21,922 bases of DNA from a virus. The stretch spans positions 1 to 21,922 of the IMG/VR virus record IMGVR_UViG_3300044701_003550; one strand, written 5' to 3'. The notes below the pieces were generated by a model. It made no database searches. It was given only the letters and a program-made list of their open reading frames with translations, and was not told the DNA's origin. The position numbers and the translations under genes are program-made. This document shows, in pieces, positions 2 to 16,682 of the stretch (positions are counted from its first letter, which is position 1; every line of letters begins with the position of its first letter).

Positions 2-763
2 TACACGGGGAACGGGTCGACGACGACCTTCTCGGTCCCGTTCCCGTACCTGCTGAAGGCGCACGTCAAGCTCTACACAGGCTTCAACATCGTTGATGGC
101 ACATTCGCCGCCCAGCTGGTGGATGGCACGGATTACACCTGGGTCAGCGGTACACAGGTGCAGAGCACTGTGGCTCCAGCTGCTGGCGTGGTGCTCACAA
201 TCATCCGCGACACGCCAGACAATGCGCTGCTGGTGCCGTGGCAAGACGGCTCCAACCTGACCGCCGATGACCTGACCACCTCCGACCTGCAAAACCTGTA
301 CGTGGTGCAGGAGCAGCAGGACAGGAATGACGCCTCGGTGATTGCCACGGCCAATGCCACGGCAGCAGCAGCGGCTTCCGCAGCGGCGGCAACCGCAGCC
401 GCGCAGCAGGCCAGCGCCGACGCCCAGGGCGCGGTGAGCACCGCCAACAGCGCGGTCGGCACGGCCAATGGCGCGGTGTCAACGGCGAACGGTGCGGTGT
501 CGACCGCCAACAGCGCGGTGTCAACGGCAAACGCCGCCACCGCCACCGCCAACAACGCAGTGGCCGTCGCCAATGGCGTGGCATCGCTGTCGCGTTCTGC
601 GATCGAGGCCGCGGCAATCCTGCTCAACGCCGCCTTCAGCGTCGGGCAACCGGGCGCCACGCCATTTGGGGTGGGCCCAGTGCTTCCCCCAGGCGCTGCG
701 TTTTCTGGCGTGAGTCAGAGCGACTACAACCCTGTTCACCACGCATCCGGGAGCTTCTGCTGA
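2..763 (+). CDS. T7-type tail fibre protein, 5' end missing
   Basis: The open frame runs in from the window edge (first full codon at 2), so the true start is upstream and about 253 residues are visible. The first ~100 visible residues (YTGNGSTTTFSVPFPYLL, then an IIRDTPDN...DGSNLTADDL...LQNLYVVQEQQDRND pattern) match the N-terminal domain of T7 gp17-type tail fibres, which attaches the fibre to the tail. A long Ala/Thr/Asn heptad-repeat segment follows, likely a trimeric coiled coil. The last ~45 residues (NAAFSVG...PFGVGP...PPGAAF...SGSFC) form a module that recurs at the end of the protein at 960-1223. The stop overlaps the next start (TGATG). Role: virion component in host adsorption. The family call is confident from the N-terminal domain; the tip function is inferred. 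Confidence 0.85.
   Translation, partial: YTGNGSTTTFSVPFPYLLKAHVKLYTGFNIVDGTFAAQLVDGTDYTWVSGTQVQSTVAPAAGVVLTIIRDTPDNALLVPWQDGSNLTADDLTTSDLQNLYVVQEQQDRNDASVIATANATAAAAASAAAATAAAQQASADAQGAVSTANSAVGTANGAVSTANGAVSTANSAVSTANAATATANNAVAVANGVASLSRSAIEAAAILLNAAFSVGQPGATPFGVGPVLPPGAAFSGVSQSDYNPVHHASGSFC
428..574 (+). repeat. Seven tandem 21-bp repeats encoding heptads
   Basis: Seven consecutive 21-bp units encode [GS]-A-V-[SG]-T-A-N-like heptads. The first five are close copies (GAVSTAN, SAVGTAN, GAVSTAN, GAVSTAN, SAVSTAN) and the last two have drifted. The array lies in the shaft of the tail fibre. The 7-residue period with Val/Ala positions suggests a coiled coil. Unit number could change by slippage or recombination and so alter shaft length. 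Confidence 0.8.
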
Positions 764-1672: not shown

Positions 1673-3211
1673 ATGACGACTATCACCCCATTGCTTCGCG
1701 TCAAAGAGCGCATTGTTGGACCCTCTGGGTTCTTCAACATCCAGAACGAGTGGTACGGCTACGCCGACGAGTTCAAGTACACGATCGGCCTGGCCGGCCT
1801 GATGGGCTTCGGGGTGGGCTGCTGCCCGCCTGACCTGCTGCCCGCCGACATGGGGCTGCTGCCAGGCACAGAAGATCGATTTAGCCCTAACTACGGCACC
1901 TACATTCACCTGCCGAGCGCTTCAATTCAGTGCTTCATTCCGGCGCACTACATTGATGTACAAGCCCCTGGCAACACCAGCGCGCCGTTCTTCGGCACCA
2001 AGGTGGTGATCTCGGACACCCAGTCCGGCAACGCTGTGCTGGCACGTCCCTTTACCGATGGTGGCGGCTCGGTGATTGGGGTGTTCATCGACAAATACCA
2101 GGGCAGCAACTGCCGGGCCGATGGCAGCGGCTTGCCAAACCACACGAACGGCCCTGGTGGCACCCCACTGACTGGCGGCATCTTTGCCAGCCGGCCGCTG
2201 CAGTGGCCCGTCAGCGCCACCACCAAGGACGACGGTGGCACTGACTTCAACAGCCCGTTCAGCTTGTGCGACAGCACTGCGCTGAACACCAACGCGACCG
2301 CCCCGACCAACAACCTTGGCGGCATCTGGGCTCTGTGCAAGACCCGTGGCACGGACTTCCTCCCCTGCCCGATCTGGACTTACACGCAGATCGGCTACCT
2401 GTCACTTGCTCACGCTCAGGCTTTGCTGGATGGCGCTGGCGCCCCGATCAGCGGCGCCACCACAAACGCCGCCTGGATGGACGTTGCCCCCTATGCGCCC
2501 AAGGGGAACAACAACGGCGGCTCCGACGTGAACAAGTCGAGTCTGCAGTTCGCTCGCACCGACTTGACCGGCAACGTGTCGGGTTGGGCCGGCCGCAGCG
2601 CTCGGTCCTTTACCGGCGCAGCGCGGATTAGCGGCGCCTCTGCGGTTGAGCACACCACCCACAACGGCCAGCTCAGCGGCATCGTGGACGTCAATGGCAA
2701 CCAGTGGGGCATCGCCCCGGGGCTGACTTCGGTGACCAGCGCCATGGCCGCCAACGGCTACCGGATGCTGCCGGGGTCTGCGGCTTGGAGCTCGATCTCC
2801 AGCAACAACGACATCCGCGCTGCTGCTGGCTTGATCTCCCTGGCGGCCGAGAGCACGGCTAGCGCCGACGACGGCATCTGGCACACCAATGCCAACGCCT
2901 GGACCTATCTGCAGGCGGCCACCAGCGGGACGTTCCACCCCTCAAGCACCTGGGCGGCCAACGCCACCCGGCGGGCCATGGCGGAGTGCGGCCTGCCCCG
3001 CGAGCTGGGCACCAACACCTCTCAGACCAGCACCAACATCTACGGCGGCGACGGCTTCTTCCGCTCGCTGACTGCAGACTGCGTGCCGCGTGTTGGGGGC
3101 GACTGGGGCGACTCCGCCTTTGCGGGTGTGTTCTCCCGGAGTCTCGACGTCACCCCGTCGAGCCCCGGCAACCGCCTTGGTGCGCGGGCCGTGCGCCTTC
3201 TGTCCGCGTGA
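1673..3211 (+). CDS. DGR variable (target) protein, C-type-lectin-like receptor-binding adhesin
   Basis: A 512-aa protein whose last ~40 residues (472-508) are encoded by the variable repeat. The C-terminus (PRVGGDWGDSAFAGVFSRSL, then ...RLGARAVRLLSA) has the layout of DGR target proteins: a CLec-fold scaffold with conserved G-x-W, F-x-R and G-A-R-A-V-R positions between surface residues encoded by AAY codons in the template. The N-terminal ~300 residues are Gly/Asn/Ser-rich without a membrane segment, fitting a virion protein. By analogy to Mtd of Bordetella phage BPP-1 it should form the receptor-contacting tip, and the neighbouring tail-fibre genes support this. Its stop TGA lies inside the avd start (GTGA). 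The DGR target call is near certain; the receptor-binding role is inferred. Confidence 0.93.
   Translation: MTTITPLLRVKERIVGPSGFFNIQNEWYGYADEFKYTIGLAGLMGFGVGCCPPDLLPADMGLLPGTEDRFSPNYGTYIHLPSASIQCFIPAHYIDVQAPGNTSAPFFGTKVVISDTQSGNAVLARPFTDGGGSVIGVFIDKYQGSNCRADGSGLPNHTNGPGGTPLTGGIFASRPLQWPVSATTKDDGGTDFNSPFSLCDSTALNTNATAPTNNLGGIWALCKTRGTDFLPCPIWTYTQIGYLSLAHAQALLDGAGAPISGATTNAAWMDVAPYAPKGNNNGGSDVNKSSLQFARTDLTGNVSGWAGRSARSFTGAARISGASAVEHTTHNGQLSGIVDVNGNQWGIAPGLTSVTSAMAANGYRMLPGSAAWSSISSNNDIRAAAGLISLAAESTASADDGIWHTNANAWTYLQAATSGTFHPSSTWAANATRRAMAECGLPRELGTNTSQTSTNIYGGDGFFRSLTADCVPRVGGDWGDSAFAGVFSRSLDVTPSSPGNRLGARAVRLLSA
3084..3200 (+). repeat. DGR variable repeat (VR)
   Basis: A 117-bp segment aligns without gaps to the template repeat at a constant offset of 541 bp. 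Every one of the 23 mismatches is at a position that is A in the TR (A to G, C or T); none is at a C, G or T. Eleven of the twelve AAC/AAT codons of the TR are changed here (to Asp, Gly, Phe, Ser, Ser, Asp, Val, Ser, Gly, Arg, Leu). The last adenine-free stretch before the end, GGTGCGCGGGCCGTGCG (3179-3195), is identical in both copies and is the likely IMH (initiation of mutagenic homing) region. Confidence 0.96.
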
Positions 3212-3218
3212 GCGGACA
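3201..3218 (+). promoter_or_regulatory. Inverted repeat (hairpin/cruciform) just downstream of VR
   Basis: TGTCCGC-GTGA-GCGGACA is a perfect 7-bp stem with a 4-nt loop, starting one base after the VR ends. The BPP-1 DGR needs a short-stem, 4-nt-loop hairpin or cruciform just 3' of VR for efficient target recognition; this element has the same position and shape. Its loop holds the target gene's TGA stop and the proposed GTG start of avd. Confidence 0.75.
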
Positions 3219-3618
3219 TGTGGGGGAGGCGAGAGCCTCCCCTTCCCCCCCAGAAGGCCTCGACAAGCGCCAGGAGCGCTATTGGCTCATCGAGCGGCGC
3301 TGCAAGGACCTGTGCCTCTACCTCGACGTGCTCACGCGCAACATGCCGCGCTACGAGAAGTACGTGCTCAGCGCCAAGATGCGAGAGATCGGCTACCTCT
3401 GCCTGGAGCTGGCCATCGCCGCCAACAAGAAACAGCACAAGAAGACCGACCTCACCCGCTTCAATGTGCAGCACGAGTTCCTGCGGCAGCTGCTCAACCT
3501 GGCGGTCGAGGCCAAGTTCATCGAACCCAGGCGCCACCGCATTGCGTCCGAGAAACTCGACGAAGTGGGCAAACTGCTTGGCGGCTGGCTACGCTCAGAG
3601 CTCAGGGCAGATTCCTGA
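3208..3618 (+). CDS. avd: DGR accessory variability determinant (Avd)
   Basis: A 136-aa basic, helix-rich protein. Predicted helices include RQERYWLIERRCKDLCLYLD, YVLSAKMREIGYLCLELAIA, RFNVQHEFLRQLLNLAVEAK and IASEKLDEVGKLLGGWL, matching the four-helix bundle of Avd, which forms a pentameric ring that binds the DGR reverse transcriptase and template RNA. It lies between the target gene and the TR, the BPP-1 order. No ATG is available in frame; the best start is GTG 3208, overlapping the target stop (GTGA), with GTG 3220 as the alternative. The start may extend or shorten the poorly conserved N-terminus; the core is secure. Confidence 0.88.
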   Translation: MSGHVGEARASPSPPEGLDKRQERYWLIERRCKDLCLYLDVLTRNMPRYEKYVLSAKMREIGYLCLELAIAANKKQHKKTDLTRFNVQHEFLRQLLNLAVEAKFIEPRRHRIASEKLDEVGKLLGGWLRSELRADS

Positions 3619-3624
3619 AATGCT

Positions 3625-3741
3625 TGCCGCGTGTTGGGGGCAACTGGAACGAATCCGCCAATGCAGGTGTGTTCAACCGGAATCTCAACAACACACCGTC
3701 GAACACCAACAACAACAATGGTGCGCGGGCCGTGCGACTTC
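3625..3741 (+). ncRNA. DGR template repeat (TR) / template RNA core
   Basis: An adenine-rich, otherwise GC-rich segment 6 bp after the avd stop and 137 bp before the RT start. It is the invariant donor for the VR. It holds twelve AAC/AAT codons (in the VR frame it would read NWNESANAGVFNRNLNN..., ending NNNNGARAVR). AAY codons can be randomised at the two adenines without creating stops, a known DGR property. 23 of its 31 adenines are changed in the VR. It is transcribed as part of a structured template RNA rather than translated. Confidence 0.96.
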
Positions 3742-3878
3742 GACACCATCACGCCCAGCGTCGATCCTCACGGGGATCGGCCGTGACGTGTTGAAGGGAG
3801 GGAATCTGTCCATGAGCCCACCCTGGGCTCTCAATAGCCGGGTCGGGCGATTCCAGTAGCGCAAGCGACCGTCTCGCC
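3742..3878 (+). other. TR-RT spacer with hairpin
   Basis: 137 nt with no supported gene between TR and the RT start. In BPP-1 the spacer of similar length after TR binds RT-Avd and primes cDNA synthesis. A clear stem lies at 3814-3830 (GAGCCCA-CCC-TGGGCTC, 7 bp, 3-nt loop). The segment is likely the 3' structural part of the template RNA and the leader of the RT gene. No strong Shine-Dalgarno is visible before the RT ATG. Confidence 0.65.
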
Positions 3879-4892
3879 ATGCCCCACAAACTCGGCAACC
3901 TTTGGCCCCAGATCGCAGACTACGACGCGCTTCTGGATGCTTGGCGGGAAGTCAAAAAGGGCAAGGCATCCAAGCCAAACATCCTCGCCTACCAGAGCAA
4001 TCTGGCGGTCAATCTCTCACGGCTAGAGGCCAAGTTGCAGGCCTGTGAGTATCAACCATCGCAGCATTACGAGTTCTGGATTAAAGACCCCAAGCCACGG
4101 CTAATTCAAGCGCCGTTCTTGGAGGATCGCATCGTTCAACACGCGGTCTGCAATGCGTTGCGCGTGCCGTTGCAGCAGCGGCTGATCTTCCACACCTACA
4201 GCTGCCTGATCGGCCGCGGCACCCATCGCTGCAGCGCTGAGCTGCAACGGATGCTGCGCAACCCACACTGGAAGTATTACCTCAGCCTCGACATCAGCAA
4301 GTTTTTCTACAGCATCAACCACGATGCGCTGTATGCAGAGATCTGCCGGCACATCAAATGCAAGCGCACGCTCGATCTGCTGTGGCAATACATCACCATC
4401 AACGGCAACGGGGTGGGCATCCCGATCGGGGCGAGCACCAGCCAGATCATGGCCAACATGGCGCTCAATCCGGTGGATCACTTTGCCCGGCGCGAACTCA
4501 AGCTCGGCACCTTTCTGCGCTATTGCGACGACATGATCGCCCTGTTCGAGACGGCGGCCGAGGCGCACGCCGCCCACCAGGCGATCGAGGCCAAGGTGCA
4601 GGAGCTGGGGATGCAGCTCAACAGCAAGAGCGGGGTGGGCTGGATCGCTGATGGCGTCGACTGGGTGGGCTACCGGCACTGGAGGCACTACAAGCTGATC
4701 CGCAAGCGAGCAATCAAGCGGCTCAAGCGCCGCTCAAAAGGCGGCTGCAGCCTGGAGACAACGATGGCCTACCTCAGCCACGCCAAGACCACCTCCAGCC
4801 TGAAACACGTCACCGGAGTGCTGTGGCGCGCCAATCCAGATCAGCGACCGGAGATCTATGCCTGGGTTTGCCGGCACCGCCGCAGCCGATAG
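3879..4892 (+). CDS. DGR reverse transcriptase
   Basis: A 337-aa group-II-intron-like reverse transcriptase. Palm motif A is LSLDISKFFYSIN with catalytic Asp138. The DGR signature IGASTSQ lies at ~183-189; other retroelement RTs usually have QGxxxSP here. The catalytic box is YCDD at 215-218. A basic thumb region (KLIRKRAIKRLKRRSKGG) follows near residues 270-290. Length fits the family (about 280-400 aa). It should copy the TR RNA into adenine-mutagenised cDNA together with Avd. No endonuclease or maturase domain is present, as expected for DGRs. It follows the TR directly, completing target-avd-TR-rt order. All catalytic residues are intact, so it is probably active. Confidence 0.96.
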   Translation: MPHKLGNLWPQIADYDALLDAWREVKKGKASKPNILAYQSNLAVNLSRLEAKLQACEYQPSQHYEFWIKDPKPRLIQAPFLEDRIVQHAVCNALRVPLQQRLIFHTYSCLIGRGTHRCSAELQRMLRNPHWKYYLSLDISKFFYSINHDALYAEICRHIKCKRTLDLLWQYITINGNGVGIPIGASTSQIMANMALNPVDHFARRELKLGTFLRYCDDMIALFETAAEAHAAHQAIEAKVQELGMQLNSKSGVGWIADGVDWVGYRHWRHYKLIRKRAIKRLKRRSKGGCSLETTMAYLSHAKTTSSLKHVTGVLWRANPDQRPEIYAWVCRHRRSR

Positions 4893-6119: not shown

Positions 6120-6383
6120 GTGGCCGATCTCCGCGACAAGCTCGAACAGCTCCACGAAGACGTGGTTCAAGTGCTCTCAGGCCGGCTCAAAGCCGAAGAG
6201 GTGGCCAACGACGACCTGAAGATGGCGATGCAGCTGCTCAAGCAGAACAGCATCTCGGCGGCAGCGATGCCCGACACGCCCGCCAGCGATCTGGCGCGGA
6301 TGGCCGGCAAGCTCAACTTCTCCACGCTGGAGGAGAAGACCAAGGTGGTGCCACTGCGCGCCGAGGATCGCCTCAGCGCTTGA
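6120..6383 (+). CDS. Terminase small subunit (DNA maturase A-like)
   Basis: An 87-aa protein from GTG 6120 with N-terminal MADLRDKLEQLHEDVVQVLS, then GRLKAEEVANDDLKMAMQLL and KQNSI. This resembles small terminase subunits of T7-like and related phages, where a short helical DNA-binding region precedes a charged tail. It matches gp18-type length (T7 gp18 is 89 aa) and sits next to TerL. It is on the plus strand while TerL is on the minus strand, and their 3' ends overlap by 11 bp, unlike T7 where both are co-directional. It would recognise phage DNA ends and stimulate TerL. Confidence 0.75.
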   Translation: MADLRDKLEQLHEDVVQVLSGRLKAEEVANDDLKMAMQLLKQNSISAAAMPDTPASDLARMAGKLNFSTLEEKTKVVPLRAEDRLSA

Positions 6384-8142
6384 TGCCCCCGTAGGCCTGG
6401 TTGCGTGGCTGGGGGCGGAAGCCCAGGGCCAGCGAGTCGATCTGGCTGCCGGTCTCATCGAACCAGGCATCGCGGATCGCGTCGTCGATCTCTTCCTGCC
6501 GGGCGGCCTTGGCTTTCTCCTGGTCTTGGGCCGCGGCCTCCACGAAGTAGGCGCAGCCCAGGGCCAGTGCATCAATCCGGTCATCGAACTGCAGCGCGCC
6601 GCGCTCGATCGTGATCCGGCTCATCTGGTACAGCAGTGAGCGGGGGTGGCCAGTTTCCGGGTCACGCTCAGCGCCAGCCCAGTCGCTCTGGATCAGCTCG
6701 GTGTTGAAGATCAACCGGTGCTGCTGGGCCAGCGGGGCCAGGGTGTCGACGATGCGGCGCTCCTTCTGGCCGCTGACGCGCCGCTCCTCCACCGCGCAGG
6801 GATGCAGTTTCTGCATAACCGGCTGCAGGAGGGCGGTGAACATGCCGTCGCCGAGATTGCTCTCCGCCACCACGTCGGAGACGTTCCAGCGCTTGGCGCG
6901 CTCGGCCAGCAGCCGCAGCACCTCCGGCTCGTAGCCGCGAGTGGTGCCGCCGCTCTCCAGTACAAACAGGTTGCCGTTGAGCTCAGCGATCACCGCCCAG
7001 GCCAGCTCGTCGCTGCCGCGGCCGGAGGGGTCGATCGCCAGGATGCAGCGCCAGGTCTCGCTGGCCGGCACCCAGCCCTGCACAACAGCTGGGGAGTGGT
7101 AGAAGCGATCCGCACCCAGGCCGACGCACGGCAGGCTCTGGATGCGGTGCTCGCTGCTGGCGGACCAGGCGACCACCTCCGGCAGCGCCTTGCCATCGAG
7201 GGGCATGACGATCAGATCGCCCAGCCGGATCGGGAACTTGTCGAGGGTCGACAGGCGGCAGTTGAGCATGAACTGCAGCTGCCAGCTCACCTTCGTGCTG
7301 CCCATCTCGCGGCGCAGCAGCTCGTCTTCACCAAAGCGCTCGGGGTCAGTCGGCTGGCCGGCCAGGTGCGGCCGCTCTTCGAGCTCCTCCACCATCAGCG
7401 GGTCCAGGTGCCCCTCGTAGGCATCCCACTGCTCCGGATCAGCCGGGTTCGGGTAGCGGCACGGCCACAGGCGGATCTTGTAGCCCCGCTCGCGCACCAG
7501 CCGCCAGTACATGGAGGTTTCCAGGTGCGGCGTGCCCAGGTAGGCAATCACCCGCGGCAGCACCTGCTCCTCGCTGTCGGGCTTGAGGATGGCCTCCAGC
7601 TCCGTTGATGCCGTCCAGAGCCGCTCCTGTTTGAGCGGAGTGATCGAGTTGTTGAGCGTCTCGATGTCGTCCGGGTAGATGGCGGTGGCCCGTTTGCCGG
7701 TCAGCGACGGCGACAGGATTCCCACAGCGCGGACACTCGGGCTCTGGTCCACCACCGAGGGGCCCACGTCGAAAGCCTTGGTTGAGCTGCGCCCATCGGC
7801 GCGGGGTTCCAGGCAGCGGAGGATGTCGATGTCACGGATGCACCGCGCCATGAAGGTGGTGATCTCCATCGCCTTCTCAGCGGTGGAACCCGGGATCAGG
7901 ATCTTCTCGTTGAAGGGATCCACCCGTAGCCGGTGCAGTGCACGGAAGGCGGTGATCGTGCTCTTGGCCACGCCACGAAAGCCCACCGTGATCGAGCGGT
8001 TCGGGCCGGTCTCCAGCCAATCGCAGATGCGCAGCTGCTGTTTGGTCGGCTCATCCGCCAGGTTGAGCTCCCGCAGCAGGTAGCAGGCGAAGTAGGCGAA
8101 CCGCCCAGCGCCCAGCTCCGGCGGGATCGGAACCCAGCTCAA
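6373..8142 (-). CDS. Terminase large subunit (T7 gp19-like packaging ATPase/nuclease)
   Basis: A 589-aa protein, the size of T7-like large terminases. An ATPase P-loop-like motif VGFRGVAKST lies at ~53-62, in the variant form seen in gp19 relatives, with Walker B ATAIYPDD at ~152-159. The nuclease domain starts near 368 with LAIDPSGRGSDELAW (Asp371), continues with VAESNLGDG (Glu427) and ends with FDDRIDALALG (Asp521/Asp524), the RNase H-like acidic set. It pumps DNA into the prohead and cuts concatemers. The start is TTG 8142, preceded by GGGAGGGG on the minus strand, and that site is partly buried in an inverted repeat (8144-8182). The gene is inverted relative to TerS and the tail genes. 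Confidence 0.93.
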   Translation of the reverse strand: MSWVPIPPELGAGRFAYFACYLLRELNLADEPTKQQLRICDWLETGPNRSITVGFRGVAKSTITAFRALHRLRVDPFNEKILIPGSTAEKAMEITTFMARCIRDIDILRCLEPRADGRSSTKAFDVGPSVVDQSPSVRAVGILSPSLTGKRATAIYPDDIETLNNSITPLKQERLWTASTELEAILKPDSEEQVLPRVIAYLGTPHLETSMYWRLVRERGYKIRLWPCRYPNPADPEQWDAYEGHLDPLMVEELEERPHLAGQPTDPERFGEDELLRREMGSTKVSWQLQFMLNCRLSTLDKFPIRLGDLIVMPLDGKALPEVVAWSASSEHRIQSLPCVGLGADRFYHSPAVVQGWVPASETWRCILAIDPSGRGSDELAWAVIAELNGNLFVLESGGTTRGYEPEVLRLLAERAKRWNVSDVVAESNLGDGMFTALLQPVMQKLHPCAVEERRVSGQKERRIVDTLAPLAQQHRLIFNTELIQSDWAGAERDPETGHPRSLLYQMSRITIERGALQFDDRIDALALGCAYFVEAAAQDQEKAKAARQEEIDDAIRDAWFDETGSQIDSLALGFRPQPRNQAYGGIKR

Positions 8143-12681: not shown

Positions 12682-13671
12682 ATGGCCGGATCAGTTCGCC
12701 GACACAGCGACGGCTGGATCGCTGATGTAACCGTTGACGGGGTGCGCCGCACCCGCAAAGCCAAGACCAAAGCCGAGGCCCTGGCCCTCAAACGCCTGCT
12801 GCTGGAGCAGCTCATGGCCCGGCCCTCGGGGCCCGGCAACGGCATCACCCTTCAGGAAGCCCGCGACCTGTCCCTGCGCATCCGCTGGCGGGGCCTGGCC
12901 TACGAGCGCACGGCCGCCATCTACAGCCAGGAGGCGGTGGACCACTTCGGCCCGCACGCCCCGCTCTGCTCCATCACCGCCCCAATGGTGGAGGAGTGGC
13001 GCCAGAAGCTGCTGGCCAAGGGGAACCGGCCGGGCACGATCAACATGAAGGTCGGCACCATCCGCTCGATGATGTCTGACGCAGTGCTGCACGGCCGGCT
13101 CGATGCCATCGCGGCGCTGCCCCGGCAGCTGACCAAGCGCAACACCAAGGACCGGGTGTTCAGCGACGAGGAGGTGGCCGGCTTCTGCCAGTTCTTTCGG
13201 GCCCTGGGCCAGCCCGCCGCGGCCGATCTGCTGGTGTTCCTGCTGGAGAGCTGCTGCCGCTGGGGCGAGGCCGAGAAGCTCAAGGGCCAGGACGTCGACT
13301 TGGAGCGCGGGACCGTCACGTTCTGGAGCACCAAGAACGGCCGGCCTCGGTCGGTGCCGCTCACCCGCAGGGCAATTGACGCCCTGGCCCCGCACATGCC
13401 GGCGGTGCCCACCCATCGGGTGTGGCCCTACAAGTACGGCACCTTCCGCTGGTATTTCGCGCAGGCCAAAGAGGCCCTGGGCCTGGCCGACGACGAGGCG
13501 CTCACCATCCACACCACCCGCCACACCTGCGCCAGCAAGCTGGCCAGCCGGGGTGTGAGCCAGGGCCAGCTGATGGCCTTCGGCGGATGGGAAAGCCTGG
13601 CAGCGGTGCAGCGCTACATGCACCTCCAGACCGGGGCGCTGGCGGCCTGCGTCGCAGCGCTGGAGGCCTGA
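12682..13671 (+). CDS. int: Tyrosine recombinase (phage integrase)
   Basis: A 329-aa site-specific recombinase. The N-terminus SVRRHSDGWIADVTVDGVRR is an arm-binding-type strand region, a SAM-like core-binding domain spans ~60-150, and the catalytic domain ~155-329 carries Arg193 (CCRWGEA), Lys218 (STKNGRPRSVPL), His277-x-x-Arg280 (HTTRHTC), Trp303 (FGGWESL; the usual His is often Trp, as in Cre) and the nucleophile Tyr312 (QRYMHL). All catalytic positions are present, so it is probably active. It lies upstream of the RNA polymerase, as in P-SSP7-type cyanopodoviruses, and 244 bp before a tRNA gene, a favoured attachment target. Confidence 0.93.
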   Translation: MAGSVRRHSDGWIADVTVDGVRRTRKAKTKAEALALKRLLLEQLMARPSGPGNGITLQEARDLSLRIRWRGLAYERTAAIYSQEAVDHFGPHAPLCSITAPMVEEWRQKLLAKGNRPGTINMKVGTIRSMMSDAVLHGRLDAIAALPRQLTKRNTKDRVFSDEEVAGFCQFFRALGQPAAADLLVFLLESCCRWGEAEKLKGQDVDLERGTVTFWSTKNGRPRSVPLTRRAIDALAPHMPAVPTHRVWPYKYGTFRWYFAQAKEALGLADDEALTIHTTRHTCASKLASRGVSQGQLMAFGGWESLAAVQRYMHLQTGALAACVAALEA

Positions 13672-13674
13672 CCC

Positions 13675-13878
13675 ATGGTTGAGCTGCTGCTGCTCGCCCA
13701 GCTGTCCGGCCCGCCCTGCGGGTGGAACTACGGGGTGGAGATCACGCCGGAGAACATGCCCCTCACCGGCTGCACGGTGCCCAGCAAGACCGACCCCTAT
13801 GGGGTGCGGCTGCGCATGGATCCGTTCTCGCCCAGCGGGGTGCGGGCCGAGCCCGCCAGGCCACCGCTCTACGAGTAG
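13675..13878 (+). CDS. Small unknown protein after the integrase
   Basis: A 67-aa protein starting 3 bp after the integrase stop. The N-terminus is hydrophobic (MVELLLLAQLSGPPCG), and the rest is Pro-rich with Y-G-V-E-I-T-P-E-N-M and Y-G-V-R-L-R-M-D repeats of a beta-strand type. It might be an excisionase or directionality factor by position, but it has no helix-turn-helix and little positive charge, so this is weak. The family is not recognised. Confidence 0.5.
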   Translation: MVELLLLAQLSGPPCGWNYGVEITPENMPLTGCTVPSKTDPYGVRLRMDPFSPSGVRAEPARPPLYE

Positions 13879-13897
13879 GGCCCGGTTTACTGTTGCC

Positions 13898-13913
13898 GCC
13901 CGGCACGCCGGGC
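13898..13913 (+). terminator. GC hairpin before the tRNA
   Basis: GCCCGG-CACG-CCGGGC, a perfect 6-bp stem with 4-nt loop, ends 1 nt before the tRNA 5' end. No T-run follows because the tRNA begins. It may end int-operon transcripts or help processing of the tRNA 5' end. Confidence 0.4.
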
Positions 13914-13914
13914 C

Positions 13915-13987
13915 GGGGGATTAGCTATCTGGTGAAAGCACCCGACTCATAATCGGAGTCAGGCCGGTTCGATCCCGGCATCCCCCA
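13915..13987 (+). tRNA. tRNA with CAU anticodon (Met or Ile-lysidine type)
   Basis: A 73-nt cloverleaf. The acceptor stem GGGGGAT/ATCCCCC is 7 bp and perfect, and the discriminator is A13987. The D-arm is GCT...AGC with GG in the loop. The anticodon loop CTCATAA is at 13946-13952 with CAT at 13948-13950, on a stem whose outer pair is a C-A mismatch. The variable loop is 5 nt, and the T-arm GCCGG-TTCGATC-CCGGC is perfect. CCA is not encoded. CAU with this loop could be elongator Met or Ile2 (C34 modified to lysidine); the CCCGACTCATAATCGG segment resembles plastid/cyanobacterial trnI-CAU. It may be phage-borne or tied to the attachment site. Confidence 0.88.
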
Positions 13988-14234: not shown

Positions 14235-16682
14235 GTGAAAAAAGTGCCAAAAGACGCCATTCGCGCACACGGCAGGCATACGGCATTTTCTTCACCTCCT
14301 CCAAACGGCCTCCAAGCATCGCGGGAGGAGGCCGAAACGGAGGCCGCCAAGGCCCGCGCCAAGGCCAACCGGGCGGCGCTGGTGGCCCAGGGGAAGGAGG
14401 GCGCCACCGAGTACGGCCGGCTTCTGTTTGACCGCTGCGGGGAGAAGGTCCAGATCGGGATCGACGCCCTGCTCACCCGCTTTGCGGCCAACCCGGCGAT
14501 GGCCGGGCCGCACTACGAAGCGCTGCCCCTGCTGCTGCACTTCAAGGACAAGGGCCTGGCGCCGATTGCGGCCGTGGCCCTGGGCGCTGTGCTCGACACC
14601 CTCACCCGCCGGCAGAGCTACGGGGTGCTGGCCGCCACGATCGGCCGCCGCATTGAGGACGAGGTGCGGGCCATGGCCATCGAGGACCGGGGCGGCGATC
14701 TGCTGCGCCTGCTGAAGAAGCGCGCCGGCGGCAAGAAGAAGGAGGTGGTGGGCACCCGGGTGATGGGCCAGCTGCAGCTGGACGAGGAGCCCTGGACCAA
14801 CGGCGACCGCCGGGCCGTGGGCTCTCTGCTGCTGGACGTGGTGGTGCGCGAAACCAGCCTGGTGCGGGTGGTCTACGTCTCCCAGCGCAAGCCAATGGTG
14901 GAGCCCACGCTGGAAACCCTGACCCTGGCTAAGTCCTGCCCGCCTCAGGTCGGGCCACCGAGGCGACTGCCGATGCTGGCGCCGCCGCGGCCGTGGACTG
15001 GGCTCTATGGCGGCGGGCACTACAGCAACAGCCAGCCGCTGGTGGGCTGCCGCACGCCCCGGGACCTGAGCTACCTGGACGAGGCGGCGCTGGCCCCGGC
15101 CCTGAAGGTGGTCAACACCCTGCAGGAGCAGCAGATGCTGATCGACCCGTGGATGGTCGACATGCAGCGCCAGGCGTGGGACGCGAACCTGCCTGACCTG
15201 TTCCCCGTGCGCCGCAATCCGCTGACCCCGCCGCCGCGGCCGGAGAACGAGCAGGACCGCAAGGCCTGGAAGGAGTGGCAGAAGGAAGCGACCCGGGCCT
15301 GGCACGACGAGAGGGAAGGCAAGAAGCAGCGGGTGCGCATCGAGCAGGCGTTGCGCCAGTGCGAGCAGGTGGCCGGCCAGCCCGTGTGGTTCGCCTACGA
15401 CCTGGACTTTCGCGGCCGGGTCTACAGCTCCAACCGCTACGTCACCCACCAGGGGCCGGACTGGGAGAAAGCAGCGGTGAGCTTTGCCGCCGGTGAGCGC
15501 TGCGACGAGGAGGCCGCCAACTGGATCCTCAAAGCCGCGGCCGGGCACTTCGGGCTGGGCCGGGCGACTTGGGAGGAGCGGCTGCGCTGGGGGATGAGCA
15601 ACATCGAGCGGATGGTGGCGGTGGCCGAGAGCCCCCTTGACCAGCTCGACCTGTGGGCCGGTGCCAAGGAGCCGTGGCAGTTCCTGCAGATGGCGCGAGC
15701 CTTCCGCGGTTGGCTGGCTGATCCGAGCCAGCCGATCGGGGTGCCGATCCGCTTTGACCAGACGACCAGTGGGCCGGGGATCCTGGCTGCCCTGGTGCGG
15801 GACCGGCGCATCGCCGAGAGCTGCAACCTGATCGGCGATCGCCCCAACGATCTCTATGCGGTGGTCGCCGCCCGGGTGCAGCAGGTGCTGCGCGGCGACC
15901 TGGAGGCCGGCAGCGACCGCGCCCAGCGGCACGCCGCGTTCTGGCTGGAGCTCGGCATCGACCGCAAGCTCACCAAGGGGCCGGTGATGACGACCACGTA
16001 CGGCGCCCAATACCAGGGCCTGGTCGATGGGCTGGTGGAACTGCTCACCCAGGAGGTGGGCCTGCTGCAGCCGTGGGAATACGAGAGCAAGCTGCTGGGG
16101 CCGAGCCGGTATCTGGCCAAGCGGCTGCTGGCCACGCTGAAGGAAGAGGTGCAGCCCTGCCTGGCGATGCAGGAGTGGCTGCGCAAGGTGTCGGCCGCGG
16201 TGGTGAAAGAGCAGAAGCCGGTGGAGTGGACGACCCCGATGGGTTTTCCGATCCGGCTCGGCTCGCCAACCCCAACGCGCAGCAAGGTGCGGACGCTGCT
16301 GAGCGGGGCGCCCAGCTGGCAGAGCGTGATGGATCGGCCCCAGGCCGGGGAGCTCAGCGCCCGGGCGACGAACCGGAGCATCACGGCCAACCTGGTGCAC
16401 AGTTTTGACGGAGCGCTGGCTCACGCCGTTGTTCACAGAGGTGCAACGCATTGCGTCCAGCTACTGACCAATCACGACTGCTTTGCGGCGATCCCGGCTC
16501 GATGTGGCTGGCTGCACCACACGCTGCACGACGAGCTGCGCGCCATGTACATGACCGACTGGCTGGCAGAGATCACAGCCGAAATCAAGGCCAGCTCTGG
16601 GGTTAAGCGGCTTCCGCCGCCGCCGATGGTGGGCGACCTGTGCCCTGGGGAGATCGGCCAGAACCCCTATTGCTTCTCCTGA
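14235..16682 (+). CDS. T7-like single-subunit DNA-directed RNA polymerase
   Basis: An 815-aa protein (T7 enzyme 883 aa) from GTG 14235. The T/DxxGR region FAYDLDFRGRVYSSNRYVTH lies near 390-410. Motif A is IRFDQTTSGPGILAAL with catalytic Asp508. Motif B is KLTKGPVMTTTYGAQYQG with Lys581 and Tyr589, the same 8-residue spacing as T7 Lys631/Tyr639. Motif C is TNHDCFAAIP with Asp748, after LVHSFDGALAH. The C-terminus NPYCFS matches the aromatic 'foot' of the family. It transcribes middle and late phage genes from its own promoters. Motif A departs from the T7-type SG(I/L)QH. It heads the replication operon, with operator-like sites on both sides. Confidence 0.95.
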   Translation: MKKVPKDAIRAHGRHTAFSSPPPNGLQASREEAETEAAKARAKANRAALVAQGKEGATEYGRLLFDRCGEKVQIGIDALLTRFAANPAMAGPHYEALPLLLHFKDKGLAPIAAVALGAVLDTLTRRQSYGVLAATIGRRIEDEVRAMAIEDRGGDLLRLLKKRAGGKKKEVVGTRVMGQLQLDEEPWTNGDRRAVGSLLLDVVVRETSLVRVVYVSQRKPMVEPTLETLTLAKSCPPQVGPPRRLPMLAPPRPWTGLYGGGHYSNSQPLVGCRTPRDLSYLDEAALAPALKVVNTLQEQQMLIDPWMVDMQRQAWDANLPDLFPVRRNPLTPPPRPENEQDRKAWKEWQKEATRAWHDEREGKKQRVRIEQALRQCEQVAGQPVWFAYDLDFRGRVYSSNRYVTHQGPDWEKAAVSFAAGERCDEEAANWILKAAAGHFGLGRATWEERLRWGMSNIERMVAVAESPLDQLDLWAGAKEPWQFLQMARAFRGWLADPSQPIGVPIRFDQTTSGPGILAALVRDRRIAESCNLIGDRPNDLYAVVAARVQQVLRGDLEAGSDRAQRHAAFWLELGIDRKLTKGPVMTTTYGAQYQGLVDGLVELLTQEVGLLQPWEYESKLLGPSRYLAKRLLATLKEEVQPCLAMQEWLRKVSAAVVKEQKPVEWTTPMGFPIRLGSPTPTRSKVRTLLSGAPSWQSVMDRPQAGELSARATNRSITANLVHSFDGALAHAVVHRGATHCVQLLTNHDCFAAIPARCGWLHHTLHDELRAMYMTDWLAEITAEIKASSGVKRLPPPPMVGDLCPGEIGQNPYCFS

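Follow-up and report, generated by a model that had tools for sequence, protein, structure and literature searches.

With high confidence, the 21,922-base window analysed here, a linear IMG/VR virus record (IMGVR_UViG_3300044701_003550), carries a complete and very probably functional diversity-generating retroelement (DGR) of the type described from Bordetella phage BPP-1, in a T7-like phage that probably infects Synechococcus-like cyanobacteria. The element comprises a target gene ending in a variable repeat (VR), the accessory variability determinant gene avd, a template repeat (TR) and a reverse transcriptase (RT) gene (Table 1). This order, already recognized in the first-pass annotation of the window, is intact and agrees with the mtd-avd-TR-brt layout of BPP-1 (mtd-bbp7-TR-brt in that phage's own record, with bbp7 in the avd position), in which the TR likewise directly follows avd and the VR is altered in an adenine-specific manner. 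Under the BPP-1 model, a transcript of avd, the TR and the spacer behind it would be copied by an RT-Avd complex that misincorporates opposite adenines, and the resulting cDNA would replace the 3'-terminal VR of the target gene, leaving the TR unchanged.

Upon pairwise realignment, the VR and TR matched over 117 bp with zero gaps and 23 mismatches, all of which occurred at the 31 adenines of the TR (A>G, n = 11; A>C, n = 7; A>T, n = 5) and none at the remaining 86 positions, reproducing the adenine-only alignment of the first-pass annotation and leaving no mismatch at a non-adenine TR position. For 23 mismatches placed randomly on 117 sites, the probability that all would fall on adenines is 5.6e-18. 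A recount of the AAY codons of the TR also returned the previously reported 11 of 12 altered in the VR, and a search of the 21.9 kb window found no further VR. The last mismatch (C3196 in the VR, A3737 in the TR) was C versus A in 9/9 of the VR-TR pairs first compared, which came from diverged genomes; contigs fetched by VR/TR patterns were excluded from this count because the search patterns demanded that difference. This position is best read as the fixed difference between the initiation of mutagenic homing (IMH) sequence at the VR 3' end and IMH* in the TR, both of which are present, and the adenine-free block at 3178–3195 is likely the IMH. As this difference is fixed between VR and TR, the mutagenesis signal amounts to 22 changes rather than 23: the mismatches originally ascribed to mutagenesis stand, apart from the pair 3196/3737.

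Comparisons between near-identical relatives point to DGR activity in the sister elements. Two sister phages (L029 and L036), which come from IMG/VR records with different data-set numbers, could be aligned over 10,645 bp and differed at 14 positions, 14/14 of them in the VR at TR adenines (log10 P about -37). For a more distant DGR (L071 and L072; 7,253 bp aligned), 12/12 differences were in the VR, with nine at TR adenines, and in a third pair (L063 and L064) 27/35 differences fell within the VR by the alignment used. The VR is thus not invariant among relatives, and the earlier suggestion that the phage has diversified its target since the TR was fixed is supported, for sister elements, by the first two pairs (14/14 and 9/12 at TR adenines). 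Because near-identical relatives differ almost only at letters that a DGR alters, such an element very probably works in nature, and these VR-only differences display adenine-directed diversification cleanly in natural phages. Phage DGRs have been found to diversify attachment proteins and to be broadly active in nature (Roux et al. 2021, PMC8144416).

The protein components are those of a DGR. A profile search of the avd frame bore out its initial assignment, matching Pfam bAvd and the PHROG 'Avd protein of DGR' (PHROG 3206, E = 1.5e-27), and the RT frame matched RVT_1 (1.3e-17), PHROG 1423 (1.1e-93) and, as the best solved relative, the reverse transcriptase 8ub7 (7.9e-51). The RT motifs were all found as first described (D138 in LDISKFF, IGASTSQ at 183 and YCDD at 215), and the profile alignment gave no sign of a broken enzyme; the window therefore holds a DGR-type RT with intact catalytic motifs alongside a BPP-1-like Avd. 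The BPP-1 reverse transcriptase Brt is homologous to the window RT, with 37% identity over 78% of the latter. In comparisons of the window with three relatives (L027, L045 and L032), avd was more conserved at the DNA level (86–96% identity) than the RT (78–91%) or the target (73–81%).

Downstream of the VR there are two inverted repeats which, together with the structured spacer discussed below (3742–3878), were omitted from the otherwise correct anatomy of the first-pass annotation. In the mechanism envisaged, the recipient site would be marked by the adenine-free IMH stretch and a downstream hairpin/cruciform. The limits established for the hairpins or cruciforms of phage DGRs (a GC-rich stem of 7–10 bp and a GRNA loop, 4–34 bp after the VR; PMC3240598) encompass inverted repeat 2 (3223–3242), which appears to be a textbook DGR target hairpin/cruciform, and on both strands of the window no other stem of at least 7 bp with a GRNA loop was found. 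The same finder recovered the corresponding BPP-1 hairpin, an 8-bp GC stem with a GRNA loop (GCGGGGCC-GAAA-GGCCCCGC). Inverted repeat 1 (3201–3218) was rejected as the DGR cruciform, as its RTGA loop lies outside GRNA whereas the second repeat fits. Across relatives this loop reads GTGA or ATGA, and the alternation of GTG and ATG at codon 3208 supports that position as the avd start.

Both repeats are conserved as structures. Among 16 distinct rows every stem cell of both repeats was paired, compared to 40–54% in slid controls, and compensatory changes were present in five stem pairs, two in inverted repeat 1 and three in inverted repeat 2. Both are broken in a relative without avd and RT beside the target (L028), and a single hairpin only is present in BPP-1 and in two more distant loci (L018 and L061). 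The window thereby differs from BPP-1 in its extra 7-bp inverted repeat (GTGA/ATGA loop) before the canonical hairpin, as well as in its T7-like carrier, and the tandem hairpin is, judging from these alignments, a clade-specific trait. The recipient site of this clade bears both conserved hairpins in tandem, and it is possible, if doubtful, that the first, acting as DNA or within the mRNA, serves as a second target-recognition element or couples Avd synthesis, and through it retrohoming, to translation of the target.

The TR and RT are separated by a spacer of a length close to that in BPP-1 (137 nt compared to 144 nt) with a predicted RNA structure. Using RNAalifold on the TR 3' end and spacer of 15 loci, a 45-pair consensus was obtained, of which 17 pairs had two-sided compensatory changes. 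The observed covariation exceeded all 500 shuffles and all slides, though the structure came from the very alignment on which it was tested, so that the test is somewhat biased in its favour. The element accordingly also has the predicted structured spacer RNA of a DGR.

Table 1. Features of the DGR and of its carrier phage in the 21,922-base window.
Feature	Position	Strand	Evidence or description
T7-type tail fibre N-terminal protein, truncated by left window end	2..763	+	PF03906, E = 7.4e-16 on 119-763
DGR target, 512 aa, C-terminal VR; tail-associated	1673..3211	+	Open reading frame (ORF); PHROG 2889, 1.9e-10; PHROG 5302
VR	3084..3200	+	Aligned to TR
IMH-like VR 3' end	3178..3196	+	18 bp (3178-3195) without TR adenine, then C3196 versus TR A3737
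Inverted repeat 1	3201..3218	+	TGTCCGC-GTGA-GCGGACA; in the loop, the stop codon of the target overlaps the start codon of avd
avd, accessory variability determinant, 136 aa	3208..3618	+	Pfam bAvd, E = 9.5e-24; PHROG 3206
Inverted repeat 2	3223..3242	+	GGGGAGGC-GAGA-GCCTCCCC; 8-bp GC-rich stem, GRNA loop, 22 bp past VR
TR	3625..3741	+	AAY-rich, 31 adenines; begins 7 nt past avd stop codon
Spacer from TR to RT (137 nt), predicted to form a structured DGR RNA	3742..3878	+	RNAalifold; BPP-1 layout
DGR reverse transcriptase, 337 aa	3879..4892	+	RVT_1, PHROG 1423, 8ub7, motifs
Terminase large subunit	6373..8142	-	PF22530, 9.1e-35; 69.5% identity to Synechococcus phage S-SRP02
Tyrosine integrase	12682..13671	+	PF00589, 1.4e-18; 70% identity to S-SRP02 integrase
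tRNA-Met	13915-13987		After integrase
T7-type RNA polymerase	14235..16682	+	PF00940, 5.8e-48; nearest isolate S-SRP02, 49.7%

The target gene was first described as encoding a receptor-binding protein that the phage diversifies. Diversification is supported by the results above, while the receptor-binding role is proposed from the position of the gene next to a fibre gene and from weak matches to tail-protein profiles. Similarity of its C terminus to the 'tail protein' PHROG 5302 (0.0013), the location of its gene behind that of the fibre, and a weak match of the C-terminal 200 aa, with the VR in register, to the Thermus aquaticus DGR variable protein TaqVP (PDB 5VF4; PMC6328139; E = 0.026, sub-threshold) together point to a lectin-like, tail-associated protein. 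By hhalign, run as a single comparison, the target matched 5VF4 with an E value of 3.8e-4 and a probability of 36%. The T7-type tail fibre N-terminal protein encoded upstream, whose frame is open from base 2, is likely the virion anchor. The target would thus be most likely a virion-surface adhesin, with a C-terminal ligand-binding face randomized at up to about 16 codons. It was unrelated to BPP-1 Mtd by the sequence searches run, and a Pfam HEPN_SAV_6107 hit (E = 0.005, below the cut-off) was set aside as a chance match. Two short tail-region proteins encoded upstream (617–763 and 1080–1223) have a common C-terminal motif, NAAFSVG.PG..PFGVGPV.PPGAAF...YNP.H.ASGSFC, which recurs in relatives and is possibly a docking module.

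Several observations temper the assignment of the target. A C-type lectin fold is suggested by the one sub-threshold match to 5VF4 (E = 0.026), and AlphaFold2 models of the full-length protein and of its C-terminal 308 aa (25–26 rows) reached predicted local distance difference test scores (pLDDT) of 29 and 31, respectively; with predictions of such low pLDDT, both the fold and the binding of a receptor are put forward as proposals. The DGR may instead be at work on some other variable surface or decoy protein, or the diversified face may bind a ligand that does not belong to the host, and the profile search returned no receptor-binding domain and the modelling no confident fold, as this alternative would have it. 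It is nonetheless rather unlikely, as the target is encoded close to a protein with a T7 tail fibre N-terminal domain and its C terminus matches a tail-protein PHROG. In another lineage (L020), moreover, the target homologue lies in the vicinity of a gene related to a virion structural protein of cyanophage S-TIM5. Phage DGRs generally serve host attachment (PMC8144416), and the Roux et al. set (>30,000 DGRs) likewise contains phage DGRs diversifying attachment proteins. Three further contigs (L019, L021 and L022) have a neighbouring ORF similar to that of L020, which suggests that more than one phage lineage has this target family.

Whether the DGR of the window is itself active was assessed from the 77 alignment columns that are never adenine. 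At these columns the window VR had no mismatches to its own TR, compared to 2–16 mismatches to the TRs of other genomes. The nearest relative that covers the target (L027) has a DNA identity of 81% in the target and 91% in the RT, and VR and TR must therefore have exchanged sequence after the split from L027. VR and TR have thus evolved in concert, and we infer from this identity that activity in this very genome is probably ongoing. An exception was L013, the VR of which mismatched its own TR at 7/77 of these columns, as would be expected if its target gene had recently been exchanged by recombination. Over L013:5549–6240, the VR and TR of the same contig differed at 10 non-A positions.

Two points weigh against ongoing activity. 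Identical VRs were found within the pairs L032/L038 and L035/L039, and a VR can therefore stay clonal; in addition, no second contig spanning this phage's own VR was found, with the nearest relative (L009, 97.8% identity over 929 bp) beginning inside the RT. Such identical pairs, as well as the common loss of the cassette in relatives that kept the target (L042, L066, L015 and L028), are what could be expected if the DGR were structurally complete yet inactive in this lineage and its VR the frozen product of past retrohoming. Against this, the window retains an intact avd, RT, spacer and pair of hairpins, and a long-frozen VR should gather non-A changes, as the uncoupled L013 pair has (7/77), whereas the window has 0/77 despite the divergence of its target and RT from L027. 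A frozen VR is accordingly very unlikely, and a functional DGR is the favoured reading. That the adenine-biased differences reflect chance or an assembly artefact, for instance two diverged duplicate gene ends, can be dismissed, given a probability of about 6e-18 for the window alone and an A-only pattern in most VR/TR pairs of other contigs; the nine independent pairs first compared already refute it.

Target homologues are found both with the cassette and without it, and related contigs have repeatedly lost it while the target was kept. In L066 avd is stopped at about residue 57, and beside target homologues there are only the first avd residues in L015, an avd fragment in L021 and no avd in L028. 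L042 (L011:3629–3964, the same contig) has an in-frame fusion of Avd 1–40 to RT 276–334, a naturally occurring loss of the DGR core that spared both hairpins. A stretch of L024 (5001–8188) contains two tandem target homologues with no avd or RT nearby in that stretch. Relatives in which the cassette is deleted, swapped or absent raise the question of when keeping such a mutator benefits the phage.

The carrier has the features of an Autographivirus-like (T7-like) cyanophage, including a single-subunit RNA polymerase, a T7-type terminase and tail fibre N terminus, and synteny with the Synechococcus isolate S-SRP02. For the terminase and the RNA polymerase, this phage was the nearest of the phage records searched, and about twenty ORFs of the window matched this phage in largely the same order; syntenic genes comprise the C39 peptidase, terminase, MarR-like, integrase, RNA polymerase, SSB, RusA, NrdR-like and polymerase/exonuclease genes. 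Based on this synteny and protein similarity, the host is probably a freshwater Synechococcus-like cyanobacterium (the host of S-SRP02 is Synechococcus sp. SR-C1, from a freshwater lake in Singapore). S-SRP02 had no match to the DGR genes or target of the window, and the region from its tail fibre gene to its C39 peptidase gene holds other genes. A search of open-licence papers, which did not extend to the Roux data set, turned up no DGR in a T7-like cyanophage. The window adds a compact, complete DGR to the integrase-bearing T7-like phages, beside a cultured relative without one.

No psbA-like Photo_RC was found in 14 related records, no prophage copies were detected in GTDB genomes searched with the RT or target, and an Rfam scan returned a tRNA only. 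The succession of integrase and tRNA-Met (12682–13987) in a T7-like phage may indicate lysogeny or a tRNA-linked attachment site.

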